Below the pieces are notes generated by a model that ran no database searches, was not told the origin of the DNA, and worked only from the letters and a program-made list of their open reading frames with translations. Positions 2 to 13,917 of a DNA stretch of 16,121 nt are shown piece after piece. Every line of letters starts with the position of its first letter. The first letter of the stretch is position 1. This DNA is from an uncultured Phaeodactylibacter sp. Lineage in GTDB: Bacteria > Bacteroidota > Bacteroidia > Chitinophagales > Saprospiraceae. The stretch covers positions 1 through 16,121 of the forward strand of contig CAJXXJ010000014.1 of the NCBI GenBank assembly GCA_913062745.1. Direction: 5' to 3'. The translations under genes and the position numbers were made by a program.

Positions 2-2302
2 GGCAAATCGGCCAGTAATGACATGACCCTGGCTGATGTGCTGCGCCCTTACCTGGAAAAGCGTGAGCTGCAGCTGATTTTGATTGCCACCCCGGAAGAA
101 TGGAAGACGGTGCAGGAAAGAGGCCGCCGCTTCAGCAACCTCTTCCGCGTCATCCGCATGGAGCCACCGCCGCTCGAAACGGCCATTGACATCATCCTGG
201 AAAAGCGCCGCCGCCTGGAGCAGGAACACGATACGGAGATCAAGCTGCAGGCCCTGCACCAATTGCTGGATATACAGCGCAACTTCCTGCGGGATAAGCC
301 GCTCCCGGGCAGTGTGCTGCGCCTGCTCGAACAGCTCTGCGTCAAGTACCGGCAGGGCGTGGTGGATGCGCCGGAGGTACGGCAGGAGTTCATGGCGTAC
401 AGCGGGCTGCAGGAACAGATTTTTGACGTCTCAGCCGCTGAAGAAAAGGAAGAGACCGCCCGGCTGATCGCCCGGGAACTGGTCGGGCAGCCGGAAGCCG
501 TTCGGGCCCTTTCTGATGTTATCCATCTGGTGAAAGCCAAGCTGAACAACCCGCAGCGCCCCCTGTCCTCCTTTCTGTTCGTGGGGCCCACCGGAGTAGG
601 CAAGACGCAAGCGGCTAAAGTGCTGAGTAAGTTCCTAAAGGGTAGTGAGGATCAGTTGCTGCGCTTTGATATGAACGAGTACATCGACAGCGGCAGCCTG
701 GAACGGCTGGTGGGCGGGCCCGGGCAGCCGGAAGGGCAGCTAACCGGAGCGGTGCGGTATCAGCCCTTCAGCATATTACTGCTGGATGAGATTGAGAAAG
801 CCCACCCGATGGTGCACGACCTGCTGCTGCAGTTGCTGGATGATGCCCGCCTGACGGACAGCCTGGGGCGGACGGTCAATTTTAGCAACACCATTATCAT
901 CATGACCTCTAATATCGGTGCCTCCGAAGCGGGCCATCAGCTCGGCTTCGGCTCCGATAATAGTCGGCTGGCAGATACCTACCGCCGGGCAATGGAACGG
1001 TTCTTTCGGCCTGAGCTGCTTAACCGTATTGATCAGACGATTATTTTCAACCCGCTGCAGCCGGAGCACATCCTCGGCATTGCCCGCCTGCAGATACAGG
1101 AACTGCTCAAACGCGATGGCTTTGTACGCCGCGCCACGATTCTGAATATCGAGCAGCCTGCCCTGCAGTGGGTGGCGCAGCGGGGCTTCGATGCCCGTAT
1201 GGGTGGTCGGGCACTGAAACGGCAAATCGAGAAAGACCTTACCGCTCTGTCCGCTGAGCAATTGGTCCACACGCATACGGATGTGCCGCTCCTGATGGAC
1301 ATTTACCTGCAGGATCAGTCGCTGCGCCCGAAAATCCGCCCGCTTTCTTTCGCCAGCCGGCTTGATAACGGCTGGCTGCCGGCTACACCGGAGGAAACCC
1401 GGGGCAAACCCTTCTACCTGCGCCTGCTGCGTGCCCTGGAGCATGTGCGCGAGCGACTGGAGCGCTACGAAGCAGACTACAGCAGCGCCGGCCCGGTAGT
1501 GTTTACCGATGGAGCATCGAGCAGTGAGCTGGGGTGGGAATACTACGATTACAAGGCGAAGGTAGCTCAGGTGCAGGAGGAAACGCAGAATATCAGCCTG
1601 GGCTTCCGGGACCGTTATTACAAAATTGGCCCGGCCATCCCTCTGCGCCTAAAGGCTGTGAAGCTGGTGCCGCGGCGGGAAGATTTTGCAAAAGGCATCC
1701 GGGAAAATATTCGGGACCTGTTATTTCAGCAGGAAGGCATAGAGGAAATCAGCGATGCCTACCGGTACGCGAATGTGCAGTTTGACAGCCTGAAGACGGA
1801 GTTTTATAACTATTTCCTGAAGGTAGCTTTCCTGGAGCTGCAGCTCCGGGCGCTTCTGGCAGAAGAACCAATGCAGGTAAGGCTCACCATAACTTCCAAT
1901 GTGGAAGGCATGGGCGGGGAAGAAATAACTTATCTACTGGAATTGTACGCCCGCATACTGGCCGAGCTTGACTTTTCACACAAGGTACTGGAAGAGGAGC
2001 AGGCTATAGAAATCAAAGGGCTGGGCGTGAGCAGCCTGATGAGCGGAGAGGCAGGCATGCATCTGTTCTACCGGGGCAACCGCAATCCGGTGCCGATTCA
2101 GGTGCGCCTGAATGAGGAGCCATCCGAACTGGCCGTTATCCGGTTGTATTACGAAGGCAAAACGCTGACGGACCTGCGCACGGGCTTTTCAAATGACAGC
2201 AATATCACTACGAATGAGTTTTCCATGCTACTGTACGCAGGCTTGCCGGCGCATATCCGCAAAGCGGTCAACCCGTTTCGTCATGCCCCGACGCAGCACT
2301 GA
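2..2302 (+). CDS. ClpB-like AAA+ ATPase with a release-factor-like C-terminal region (5' end outside window)
   Basis: The frame is open to the window edge, so the N-terminus is missing; residues below count from the Met at 23. The start matches the end of a Clp first ATPase domain (after Walker B), with sensor-1-like ATPEEW (23-28) and an arginine-rich RGRRF (34-38). The second AAA+ domain is complete: Walker A GPTGVGKT (188-195), Walker B ILLLDE (251-256), sensor 1 TSN (295-297), arginine finger in NRID (R335), sensor 2 GGRALKR (395-401). ClpB would end soon after; here some 330 more residues follow. Residues about 617-693 resemble the PCRF domain of release factors RF1/RF2 (GMGGEEITYLLELYARIL against their GTGGDEA...MY.R). 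Residues about 705-745 (VIRLYY, TDLRTGF, LYAGLP) resemble the RF1 tail with its TDHR motif. No GGQ catalytic loop lies between them. Inference: an ATP-driven unfoldase or remodeller that recognises ribosomes or stalled translation products. The AAA+ assignment is firm; the release-factor homology comes from motif reading only. Confidence 0.88.
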   Translation, partial: GKSASNDMTLADVLRPYLEKRELQLILIATPEEWKTVQERGRRFSNLFRVIRMEPPPLETAIDIILEKRRRLEQEHDTEIKLQALHQLLDIQRNFLRDKPLPGSVLRLLEQLCVKYRQGVVDAPEVRQEFMAYSGLQEQIFDVSAAEEKEETARLIARELVGQPEAVRALSDVIHLVKAKLNNPQRPLSSFLFVGPTGVGKTQAAKVLSKFLKGSEDQLLRFDMNEYIDSGSLERLVGGPGQPEGQLTGAVRYQPFSILLLDEIEKAHPMVHDLLLQLLDDARLTDSLGRTVNFSNTIIIMTSNIGASEAGHQLGFGSDNSRLADTYRRAMERFFRPELLNRIDQTIIFNPLQPEHILGIARLQIQELLKRDGFVRRATILNIEQPALQWVAQRGFDARMGGRALKRQIEKDLTALSAEQLVHTHTDVPLLMDIYLQDQSLRPKIRPLSFASRLDNGWLPATPEETRGKPFYLRLLRALEHVRERLERYEADYSSAGPVVFTDGASSSELGWEYYDYKAKVAQVQEETQNISLGFRDRYYKIGPAIPLRLKAVKLVPRREDFAKGIRENIRDLLFQQEGIEEISDAYRYANVQFDSLKTEFYNYFLKVAFLELQLRALLAEEPMQVRLTITSNVEGMGGEEITYLLELYARILAELDFSHKVLEEEQAIEIKGLGVSSLMSGEAGMHLFYRGNRNPVPIQVRLNEEPSELAVIRLYYEGKTLTDLRTGFSNDSNITTNEFSMLLYAGLPAHIRKAVNPFRHAPTQH

Positions 2303-2735: not shown

Positions 2736-3260
2736 TCAGGACAAATGTGCGGCCGCTTCCTTCTTAATAGCGAGCAGGGCTTTTTCGACGGCCAGGGACT
2801 CGCGCTCGTTGAGCAGTTTGAAAATCTGCTGAGCCAGCTCCCGGGCATCTGCTTCCTTGCTGACATCCTGTGCGGCAATCGAGATGAGGTCTATGCTCTC
2901 TTCGCGGGCAATCTTGATGATTTCCCAGAGCTGGGAGGAGACGTATACCTGCTGCGTGATGTTGTGCTCGTATTCCTGTTGCAGGTCCAGCAGCATCCCC
3001 AGGCGCAGCGTGCCGGCATTCATACCGTCTTTGCGCACCCGCAGCAGCAAGTTGGGCAGGGTAATGCGCTCGCAGAACATCGACAGGCGCTCGTAGGCCT
3101 GCAGTTTTAGCGGAAGCGTAGCCTCCCGGCGCTCGCGCTGCAGCTTGATCTCCTCGCGCCGCAGCTGACTGTCGAGATAGGTTTTCAAAACGTAGTAGGC
3201 GGCCAGAAAGACCAGCAGGCCCGGTATCGTCAGTTTAAGCAGTTCCAGCAAAAATTCCAT
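2736..3260 (-). CDS. Membrane-anchored coiled-coil protein of unknown function (174 aa)
   Basis: The N-terminus MEFLLELLKLTIPGLLVFLA and the next residues form a single transmembrane helix (about 6-24). It is followed by a charged helical segment rich in Arg, Glu and Lys (about 30-60) and a mostly helical cytosolic body. I associate this architecture with a short protein family common in Bacteroidota (DUF7935 as I recall, not checked); its function is unknown. I chose the ATG at 3260 rather than the in-frame ATG at 3335. The longer start would add 25 residues ahead of the membrane helix, and it lies upstream of the consensus promoter at 3281-3313, whose transcript should begin near 3275. The gene is divergent from the Fe-S carrier gene, with promoters overlapping; a functional link is not established. 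Confidence 0.8.
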   Translation of the reverse strand: MEFLLELLKLTIPGLLVFLAAYYVLKTYLDSQLRREEIKLQRERREATLPLKLQAYERLSMFCERITLPNLLLRVRKDGMNAGTLRLGMLLDLQQEYEHNITQQVYVSSQLWEIIKIAREESIDLISIAAQDVSKEADARELAQQIFKLLNERESLAVEKALLAIKKEAAAHLS

Positions 3261-3271
3261 GTTAGCTGTTT

Positions 3272-3301
3272 TTGAGCCCCCAAAGGTAGGGCTTATATTT
3301 G
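3272..3301 (+). promoter_or_regulatory. Bacteroidota-type promoter for the Fe-S carrier gene
   Basis: TTG (3272-3274), a 19-base spacer and TATATTTG (3294-3301) match the Bacteroidota primary sigma consensus in full, at the preferred spacing. The predicted start near 3308 leaves a leader of roughly 113 bases before the ATG at 3421. The element overlaps the opposing promoter at 3281-3313, so the two probably cannot be occupied together. Confidence 0.7.
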
Positions 3302-3313
3302 TACTGTAGTCAA
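3281..3313 (-). promoter_or_regulatory. Bacteroidota-type promoter for the 2736-3260 gene
   Basis: On the minus strand the -7 element reads TACCTTTG (3288-3281), a full match to TAnnTTTG. A TTG (3313-3311) lies 22 bases upstream, within the 17-23 range. Transcription should start near 3275, giving a leader of about 15 bases before the ATG at 3260. This supports the shorter start of that gene. Confidence 0.65.
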
Positions 3314-3420
3314 GCCGCGTGCTTTTAAAAACCAAACGCTATTCCGGGCTGTTGACTTAGGAAGTGGTGCCAATCATCCGCCCACTGTAAGAGCAAAACT
3401 CTAAAAACACATTTACCAGT

Positions 3421-8382: not shown

Positions 8383-8930
8383 CAGATCATCGGCCCCATA
8401 AGGTCCACCAGGCCTTCCCGCCAGCGCTTATCGCCGAGGGGCTTGACCATAAGTGCCTGATCGATGCTGCGCTGAGCGATGCCCAGGGTTTCTTCCCGGT
8501 GCAGCAGCAGCCAGCGGCAGGTGTTGGATACCGGCTCAAAGCCGTGCCGGCGGTAAAAGGCAGGCTCAGATGCCATCAGCAAAATGAAATCACAGGCAGA
8601 CTCGCGGCCCAGCGCATCCAGCCGCTCCAGCAACTGGGAGCCCAGTTGGCGGTGTTGATGCTCAGGCGCGACGCACAAATCAGCGATGCCGAACACCCGC
8701 AGCAGTTGGCCGCCGTTATTGACCAGGCGGTAGGCTACACTCATTTGCGCAAGCAGCTCCTCCCCTTCCCATACCAAATAACGGAAATCAGGCAACTGCC
8801 GGAAGTAAGTGCGTTCCGGGTAGACCGAATACGCAGCTTTTAGCAGTTGTTGAATGGCTTCCTCCTCCTTACGGGAAAGCCGGAACTCCTCCACCCGCTC
8901 CCACCTTAATGATTCACTAGTAGTACTCAC
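8382..8930 (-). CDS. GNAT-family N-acetyltransferase (182 aa)
   Basis: The GNAT core is recognisable: a strand LLRVFGIADLCVAPEHQHRQLGSQLLERL (about 76-104), with the acetyl-CoA pyrophosphate loop at R94-x-x-G97 after V87-A-P, then FILLMASEPAFYRRHGFEPV, the motif B strand and helix ending in Y-x-x-x-GF. The N-terminus (LLKAAYSVYPERTYFRQLPDFRYLV) is typical of the GCN5-like branch acting on small molecules. The substrate cannot be read from the sequence. The ATG at 8930 lies 14 bases inside the end of the diadenylate cyclase gene, so the two are translationally coupled and probably cotranscribed with the prolyl oligopeptidase gene. No link to c-di-AMP is known to me. Confidence 0.88.
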   Translation of the reverse strand: MSTTSESLRWERVEEFRLSRKEEEAIQQLLKAAYSVYPERTYFRQLPDFRYLVWEGEELLAQMSVAYRLVNNGGQLLRVFGIADLCVAPEHQHRQLGSQLLERLDALGRESACDFILLMASEPAFYRRHGFEPVSNTCRWLLLHREETLGIAQRSIDQALMVKPLGDKRWREGLVDLMGPMI

Positions 8931-9711
8931 TCAGCAGACTCTTTATCTCTTTTTCGTCTAATTTGCGCCGCAGGTTCCCCTCCACGGCGATGGAGACGGT
9001 GCCCGTTTCTTCACTCACCACAAAAGCCGCCACATTGGCCCGCTCTGTGATCCCCACTGCTGCCCGGTGGCGCAGGCCGGCACTGCTCGGGAGGTTGGGG
9101 TTTTCAGAAACCGGGAGCACGCAGCTGGCTGACTTCACCTTGCCGTTGCTGATGAGCACCGCACCGTCGTGCAGCGGGCTATGCTTGTTGAAAATACTTT
9201 CCAGCAGCGGTTCGCTGATTTCCGCATCCATATCCACCCCGGAGCTCACCAGGCCGTCGAGGCTGAGGTTGCCCGAAAGCACAATCAGTGCCCCGGTCTT
9301 GCGTTTGCTCATCCGCAGCAGCGCCGAGCGGATCGCCCGCAGCTGGCGCGCCTTTTCTTCCGTATTCTCCAGGTTGCGGTCTATCATCCGCCCCAGAAAA
9401 TTGGAGCGCTGCCGCAAAGTGGTATTGCCCAGAAACAGCAGAAAGCGCCGTACCTCCGGCTGGAAAATAATGATAATGATAATCACTCCGACACTGACAA
9501 ACTGATCGAGCACCGCCGAAAGCAGGTCCATTTCCAGCTGATTGACCAGCCACCACACCACGTACAGAGTCAGCACGCCAATAAAGATGTTGAAGGCGAT
9601 ATTCCCCCGCAGCAGTTTGTAAATCTGGTAGATCAGATAGCCGACAATCAGGATATCAAGGACATCCCAAATGCGGACCGGCAAAAAACCAATGTCAAAA
9701 AGATAGATCAT
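8917..9711 (-). CDS. cdaA: Diadenylate cyclase, CdaA type, membrane-bound
   Basis: The enzyme condenses two ATP into cyclic di-AMP, which controls potassium and osmolyte transport and cell-wall homeostasis in bacteria that make it. The N-terminal 90 residues hold three membrane helices (about 9-33, 38-56, 62-83; the last contains six consecutive Ile). A linker leads to the DAC domain (about 110-250) with both signature motifs: DGA at 182-184 (HDGAVLIS) and RHR at 214-216 (GLRHRAAVGI). Length 264 fits CdaA (about 270). The usual Firmicutes partners cdaR and glmM are absent. Here the gene follows a prolyl oligopeptidase by 9 bases and overlaps a GNAT gene by 14, implying one transcript. Confidence 0.96.
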   Translation of the reverse strand: MIYLFDIGFLPVRIWDVLDILIVGYLIYQIYKLLRGNIAFNIFIGVLTLYVVWWLVNQLEMDLLSAVLDQFVSVGVIIIIIIFQPEVRRFLLFLGNTTLRQRSNFLGRMIDRNLENTEEKARQLRAIRSALLRMSKRKTGALIVLSGNLSLDGLVSSGVDMDAEISEPLLESIFNKHSPLHDGAVLISNGKVKSASCVLPVSENPNLPSSAGLRHRAAVGITERANVAAFVVSEETGTVSIAVEGNLRRKLDEKEIKSLLSEYY

Positions 9712-13293: not shown

Positions 13294-13917
13294 ATGAACG
13301 TACGCAGCCGGGAAGAAGAATTGAGAGCCGTGCAAATGCTTGGGCTTAAACTGCCGACGGACCCACGCTGGGTGAATATGGCAGAAATGGACCTGGAAGA
13401 GATCCTGACCGACCACGCTTACTGTGAGCAAAAAGCGGCGACGGCCTGCATTTCCCTGATTCAGGCCTACCCGGAGCACGAAGAGCTGGTGCGTGACCTG
13501 GCACCGATCGTTACCGAAGAGTGGGGCCACTTCCGCATGGTGCTGAAGGAACTCGACAAGCGGGGGCTGAAGCTGGGCCGGCAGCGTAAAGACGAGTATG
13601 TCAACAAACTGCTGGCTTTCCAGAAAAAAGGGTCGAGCCGCGAGGAGCGCCTGCTGGAACGCCTGCTGACCTGCGCGCTGATTGAGGCCCGCAGCTGTGA
13701 GCGCTTCCGCCTGCTTTCCCTCAATATCAACGATGAAGACCTGAAAGAGTGGTACCATAAATTCATGGTAGCGGAGGCTGGCCACTACCGGCTGTTCCTG
13801 GACCTGGCAAAAGCCTACTGCCCGGAGGATAAAGTCCGGCAGCGCTGGAAAGAATACCTGCAGCGGGAAGCTGAAATCATGGAGGAACTGGAGCTGCGGG
13901 GAGACCGGATGCATTAG
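13294..13917 (+). CDS. miaE: tRNA-(ms2io6A)-hydroxylase MiaE-like diiron protein
   Basis: MiaE hydroxylates the isopentenyl group of ms2i6A at position 37 of tRNAs reading U-starting codons, using O2 and a diiron centre. The 207-residue all-helical ferritin-like protein has the expected ligands: E45 (AYCEQKAA), E76 and H79 (EEWGHF), E131 (LIEARSCERF), E161 and H164 (VAEAGHYRLF). The N-terminal LGLKLPTDPRWV and the middle RQRKDEYVNKLL are also characteristic. Length is close to the Bacteroidota members and somewhat below the Salmonella enzyme (about 270). The upstream modification enzymes MiaA and MiaB are not in this window. Probably driven by the promoter at 13238-13269. Confidence 0.93.
   Translation: MNVRSREEELRAVQMLGLKLPTDPRWVNMAEMDLEEILTDHAYCEQKAATACISLIQAYPEHEELVRDLAPIVTEEWGHFRMVLKELDKRGLKLGRQRKDEYVNKLLAFQKKGSSREERLLERLLTCALIEARSCERFRLLSLNINDEDLKEWYHKFMVAEAGHYRLFLDLAKAYCPEDKVRQRWKEYLQREAEIMEELELRGDRMH

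Follow-up and report, generated by a model that had tools for sequence, protein, structure and literature searches.

A release-factor-like module without a GGQ domain at the end of an atypical Hsp100-type ATPase from a Saprospiraceae genome

The window analysed here, a stretch of 16,121 nucleotides from an uncultured Phaeodactylibacter species (contig CAJXXJ010000014.1), opens with the gene of an atypical Hsp100-type AAA+ ATPase whose C-terminal extension is, with near certainty, homologous to domains 2 and 4 of bacterial class-I release factors (RFs) minus their GGQ domain. The open reading frame (ORF) at 2-2302 (+) has an open 5' end and reads as 766 amino acids. Because the window begins at base 1 of its contig (C14 of our genome G000), the 5' part of the gene is cut off. 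The homology, the missing domain, the conservation of the module and, within the samples searched, its confinement to a single bacterial family all come from computation. Our preferred reading, to which we give a probability of roughly 45%, is that this RF 2/4 superdomain, having lost the GGQ domain and most of the codon loop, docks at the ribosome and that the AAA+ motor acts there. Every step beyond an RF-derived fold is one that we infer.

Homology of the extension to release factors

Of 8000 candidates scored in a search with the C-terminal 331 residues, 90 proteins passed E <= 0.001; 84 of these are 1,077-1,157 amino acids long and six are 704-894. By alignment, residue 1 of the window protein corresponds to residue 336 of P0010, a full-length relative, and relatives carry about 335 extra N-terminal residues. 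The full-length layout, in P0010 numbering, is an N-domain (1-225), a first AAA+ module D1 (226-485), a second AAA+ module D2 (486-765) and the extension (766-1096). Averaged over 1,500 pairs drawn from 84 sequences, pairwise identity is highest in D2 (72%), followed by D1 (56%), the RF-like part (46%), the linker and helices (45%) and the N-domain (39%). Source names among the matches listed are Clp ATP-binding subunit, AAA family ATPase or molecular chaperone, and none mentions a release factor.

A preliminary description of this DNA, whose residue numbers were counted from an internal ATG at nucleotide 23, had proposed that an RF PCRF domain and tail are joined here with the GGQ hairpin deleted. 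The strings on which it drew, GMGGEEITYLLELYARIL, VIRLYY, TDLRTGF and LYAGL, all lie in frame in the window ORF. It had also allowed that its residues 610-750 might prove to have another fold. The predicted C-terminal model instead led to RF2 and RF1: among the chains listed by the structure search, 46 of 50 are RF1, RF2, mitochondrial RF or PrfH. The other structural matches among those listed, three designed binders and one flagellar chain, were taken as chance arrangements. Model, structure search and profile comparison together place an RF domain-2 (PCRF)-like part with the order b-a-b-b-a-b-b at 1862-2116 (+), and an RF domain-4-like tail with VIRxY and TDLRTGF at 2126-2269 (+), TDLRTGF itself occupying 2168-2188.

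The RF profile was built from loci in 20 genomes of the class, the window's own included, plus E. coli prfB; 33 loci gave 24 usable sequences (16 without SPF and 8 with it, one duplicate protein being kept once), and nine were left out. In profile-profile comparison with hhalign, the last roughly 190 residues of the family scored 38.1 against the full RF profile (probability 55.9). Against the same profile with the GGQ domain excised, the score rose to 54.8, with a probability of 93.8 and an E-value of 1.8e-7, bearing out the deletion first suggested from the motifs. Sixty column shuffles reached at most 22.1 and a reversed profile 19.3; 12 unrelated families from neighbouring genes scored 9.9-19.8. 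When a 92-residue deletion was placed at 26 positions along the RF profile, scores stayed at or below 38.3 except for starts at 180-220, which gave 45.6-56.0; GGQ is at residue 226.

Comparisons with initial small RF sets of 10 and 2 sequences had been weak (probabilities 24 and 16.5), a picture changed by the larger sets and the excision test. Among single sequences, PCRF (PF03462) is the Pfam family with the largest number of matching members in a 41-member alignment, yet that number is just three, with a best E of 0.01. That the resemblance reflects coincidence in a small alpha/beta fold was already disfavoured, and we consider it highly improbable. Three matches to stand-alone C-terminal proteins, of 292-368 amino acids, resemble fragments, and one of these is labelled partial.

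Elements kept and lost in the RF-like module

Conservation was counted over 91 aligned sequences, in P0010 numbering, for the motifs G973, Y984, GExGxHLFY, PxP, RxY, TDLR and N1068. The counted residues are conserved in 82-91 of the 91, and the RF-like strings quoted in the preliminary description are thus not chance strings. In GExGxHLFY, at 2045-2071 (+) and aligned by profile with the RF ExGVHR motif, the E and G counted in GExG are invariant and the following H occurs in 87 sequences. Equally invariant are the second P of PxP, the R of IRxY and the N, while TDLR keeps its T in 90, D in 91, L in 82 and R in 90. A GxxE motif at a helix tip, here GGEE at 1913-1924 (+), is by alignment the counterpart of RF1 GGDE, which contains Gly116 and Glu119 in T. 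thermophilus numbering (the assignment of these numbers to motif letters is our own count). Its G is kept in 86 of 91 sequences and its E in 71. In RF1 those two residues bond the first stop-codon base (PMC3974865, in part).

ExGxH and TDLR stand 41-55 residues apart in 84 sequences of this family; in 21 release factors the spacing is 139-140. Four of the 91 extensions contain the letters GGQ, each time in a variable linker or loop. A short H-x-N-P-x-P stretch stands in place of the PxT/SPF loop and of the His and Thr that recognise the second and third codon bases. The mean net charge of the module, -2.7, is similar to that of RF domains 2 and 4 together (0 to -7 in 20 RFs). Because the motifs are conserved, the GGQ domain is absent and the PxT/SPF loop is replaced, the module, judged from its sequence, is an RF scaffold from which the hydrolase and most codon reading have gone.

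Between D2 and this module the predicted model shows two antiparallel strands (1289-1342, +) and three long helices (1394-1861, +), the latter in the place that RF domain 1 takes in release factors. Structural alignments of the model to RFs extend across these helices in some cases. A conserved segment within the helical part, at 1598-1729 (+), reads LGFRDRY..PAIPLRLK....RENxKDxLFQ, with a model confidence of about 60 in part; lying between helices ahead of the module, PAIPLRLK and its surroundings could be a binding loop.

The motor, its neighbours and its distribution

The complete second AAA+ domain of the preliminary description is confirmed by Pfam, which finds AAA_2 at residues 186-345 of the window protein (E 3.5e-46; nucleotides 557-1036) and ClpB_D2-small at residues 352-423 (1055-1270). 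D2 as a whole spans 452-1291 (+) with its catalytic motifs intact: Walker A is kept in 91 of 91 sequences, and the Walker B, sensor 1, Arg finger and sensor 2 motifs are present in variants. The 3' part of D1, identified by alignment to four Hsp100s of the same genome, lies at 2-451 (+), cut by the contig edge. Its Walker B, which falls upstream of the window, is the degenerate DN in at least 90% of 84 relatives. An [ALVI]G[FY] tripeptide, LGF at 941-949 (+) in the window protein, is found in 89 of 91 sequences and aligns with VGF in L004, a ClpC-like paralogue from the same genome; we presume that this position has a putative ClpP-docking role. Against NCBIfam the 766-residue protein matched Clp families, all below their cut-offs. 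N-domains of two relatives, scanned with Pfam, gave no match and thus no Clp_N; this domain (P0010 residues 1-225; L045:5685-6380) is cut off in the window.

The best other match in the same genome is L002 (G000:C657:677-2965), a 763-amino-acid ORF with 39% identity over residues 13-422. It too is without GYVG, has VGF and has a degenerate D1 Walker B, and it ends after D2 with no RF module. A search with L002 found 944 related proteins, the 120 listed being 751-767 amino acids long; at E <= 1e-100 the type occurs in one of 148 phylum genomes, the window's own. The RF module was presumably added to an ATPase of the L002 sort.

The module was found in one of 395 genomes sampled across the phylum, again the window's own, and in 19 of the 298 genomes sampled from the order; all 19 carriers belong to the window's own family. 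Within that family it occurs in 107 of 298 genomes (four of the 107 at E between 1e-13 and 1e-3) and 47 of 112 genera. In the genus it occurs in six of six genomes. A scan of named genomes for TDLR[TS]G[FY][ST]N, a single pattern that other forms would escape, gave 41 stretches and 38 relatives, with titles naming Saprospiraceae, Saprospirales, Lewinella, Aureispira, Phaeodactylibacter, Flavilitoribacter, Chitinophagales, Bacteroidia and Bacteroidota/Bacteroidetes, and no others. A cultured strain, Flavilitoribacter nigricans DSM 23189, is among the carriers (L075). Plasmid records held no match to the RF-bearing ATPase. In the samples searched, the protein is restricted to one bacterial family, and this was the reason for dropping the idea that it descends from an ancestral release factor older than the GGQ insertion. 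One genome, MAG-30, carries two copies, L063 and L076 (contigs JAHDFV010000125.1 and JAHDFV010000004.1).

In 16 of the 38 named loci, a gene upstream on the opposite strand encodes a protein of up to 913 amino acids with two CbbX/SpoVK-like AAA+ modules, directly adjoining by ORF calling in 11. Among the own-family genomes, both gene positions are available for 94 of 107, with one place per gene per genome and second copies not placed. The two genes lie on different contigs in 50 of these, the window's genome included (C14 and C413). Where both share a contig (44 genomes), seven have them more than 60 kb apart and 29 have them head-to-head within 1.5 kb, gene starts being estimated. Co-occurrence as such was set aside as uninformative because the CbbX-like gene is so widespread in the family; position alone informs. 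The protein itself (L045:2825-5563 (-); L096 in the window's genome, G000:C413:1779-4406) combines its two AAA+ modules with an unassigned N-terminal part and, in NCBIfam, exceeds the cut-off of the family named stage V sporulation protein K. Organisms of this family are not known to form spores. PADLOC returned generic AAA+ matches for this protein and the RF-bearing ATPase alike.

This arrangement bears on a different explanation, in which the RF-derived fold was kept solely as a structural or protein-binding module, for oligomer contacts or as an adaptor for the CbbX/SpoVK-like protein, with no ribosome binding. It would account for the loss of both RF functional elements, the GGQ domain and the codon loop, and for a recurring neighbour that is another AAA+ protein, head-to-head within 8 kb in 37 of the 44 same-contig genomes. 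It sits less well with the continued conservation of the RF helix-tip, ExGxH and TDLR residues, and with the presence of the CbbX-like gene in 272 of 298 family genomes against 107 of 298 for the RF-bearing ATPase, a partner that evidently does not need the latter. We regard this explanation as unlikely, if a serious competitor.

Other neighbours are varied. In some relatives the divergent neighbour encodes a giant secreted protein with 10 to 14 DUF4397 stretches and a type IX secretion system sorting tail (L043:1917-5489, L048:665-5422, L056:84-5417). Downstream in the window lie ordinary genes, among them those for a DUF7935 protein (2736-3335, -), a CdaA-type diadenylate cyclase (8917-9711, -) and a MiaE-like tRNA hydroxylase (13294-13917, +).

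Possible function and comparison with known systems

In the preferred reading, that of a ribosome-docked motor, removal of the GGQ insert would have left a hydrolysis-free anchor for the decoding centre. The module would dock in or near the A site, neither reading a codon nor releasing a peptide. Its codon loop being lost, it could not rely on a codon for docking and would in this be like Balon. The helices ahead of the module might serve as an outward arm, and the D2 ring, perhaps joined by ClpP at the LG[FY] loop, would act on the docked ribosome or its bound cargo. The outcome would be ribosome rescue or nascent-chain quality control, in a working mode that may resemble eukaryotic Vms1, an RF-like protein, with the AAA+ ATPase Cdc48, achieved here with unrelated parts in one chain.

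Several results weigh against this reading. Loss of the codon loop takes with it part of the ribosome-contacting surface. Neither pore loop of the ATPase is typical: the KYxG tyrosine was not found in D1, which has a SIVG-type sequence instead, nor GYVG in D2, and alignment shows both in three Hsp100s of the same genome (L003, L004 and L005). For that reason the label 'unfoldase' is uncertain and threading may not occur. No translation gene is among the nameable neighbour families common to at least four of the 38 loci. The roughly 330 residues beyond D2, an extent that the preliminary description had correctly given, yielded nothing above cut-off in single-sequence searches of Pfam and PDB. 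A 12-member profile had no match in PDB, and NCBIfam searches with 41 members placed no RF family among the best 25 of 63. The helices before the module (residues of about 470-620) gave no sequence match to RF domain 1: the probability was 1.2, no better than the 1.4 of a reversed control.

Docking might also serve hibernation, the module filling the A site of idle ribosomes and the ATPase ring removing or loading it. The precedent is Balon, a GGQ-less aeRF1 relative that fills the A site and has no codon motif (PMC10901736, in part), and the present module, from the other RF superfamily, is without the same two kinds of feature. Nothing here, however, would reach the peptidyl-transferase centre, whereas Balon retains its middle domain (PMC10901736, in part), and the clustering of the 38 loci, a comparison not aimed at stress genes, revealed no stress-gene context. 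We judge an occlusion factor rather improbable. Ribosome binding in some form, the ribosome-docked motor and the occlusion factor taken together, seems to us somewhat better than an even chance.

The open-access titles and abstracts searched, a set that covered neither subscription papers nor preprints, described no fusion of Clp with a release factor and no bacterial RF without its catalytic domain. The word 'Clp' does not occur in the RF survey PMC6514570. The protein is possibly a new class of machine. In its fullest form the proposal is that a release factor, by deletion of its GGQ domain, became a ribosome anchor, codon-blind and hydrolysis-dead, that was fused to an Hsp100 motor, giving a one-protein ribosome-directed AAA+ machine convergent with Vms1-Cdc48 and possibly working with ClpP and the divergent CbbX-like double ATPase; this we put forward tentatively, at a little less than even odds. 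If ribosome binding is real, bacteria would have an ATP-driven A-site factor and, with it, a case of convergence on the ribosome quality control of eukaryotes. Without ribosome binding, the protein would still illustrate cleanly the reuse of a translation fold for another purpose.

In RF1 and RF2 (PF03462 PCRF and PF00472 RF-1), domain 2 and the domain-4 tail have the same fold and follow in the same order as in the module, and the GxxE, ExGxH, IRxY and TDxR motifs are shared. The module differs in having no GGQ domain, a replaced PxT/SPF loop, about 94 fewer residues between ExGxH and TDxR, and its fusion to an Hsp100. PrfH, whose chains are among the structures listed, and ArfB are likewise reduced relatives of RF1/RF2, PrfH having lost the helical domain and ArfB the decoding domain (PMC6514570, in part). 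Both retain the GGQ hydrolase, and the RF-bearing ATPase appears as the reverse of their losses, with the hydrolase missing and a conserved decoding scaffold kept on an AAA+ motor. ClpA and ClpC share with it the two AAA+ modules, an intact D2 and the [ALVI]G[FY] tripeptide at the VGF place of L004, but the protein has no Clp_N by Pfam in the two N-domains scanned, a degenerate D1 Walker B, no GYVG and an added RF module. The L002-type Hsp100s of about 755 amino acids from the same organisms are also without GYVG and have VGF, but end after D2 with no RF module. Balon is likewise an RF relative without GGQ or codon motif (PMC10901736, in part), but belongs to the aeRF1 superfamily, has three domains and carries no fused ATPase. 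In the ribosome quality control of eukaryotes, Vms1/ANKZF1 and Cdc48 also pair an RF-like protein with an AAA+ ATPase (PMC6514570, in part), but as two separate proteins and from the aeRF1 superfamily, so that the likeness would be one of proposed function only.
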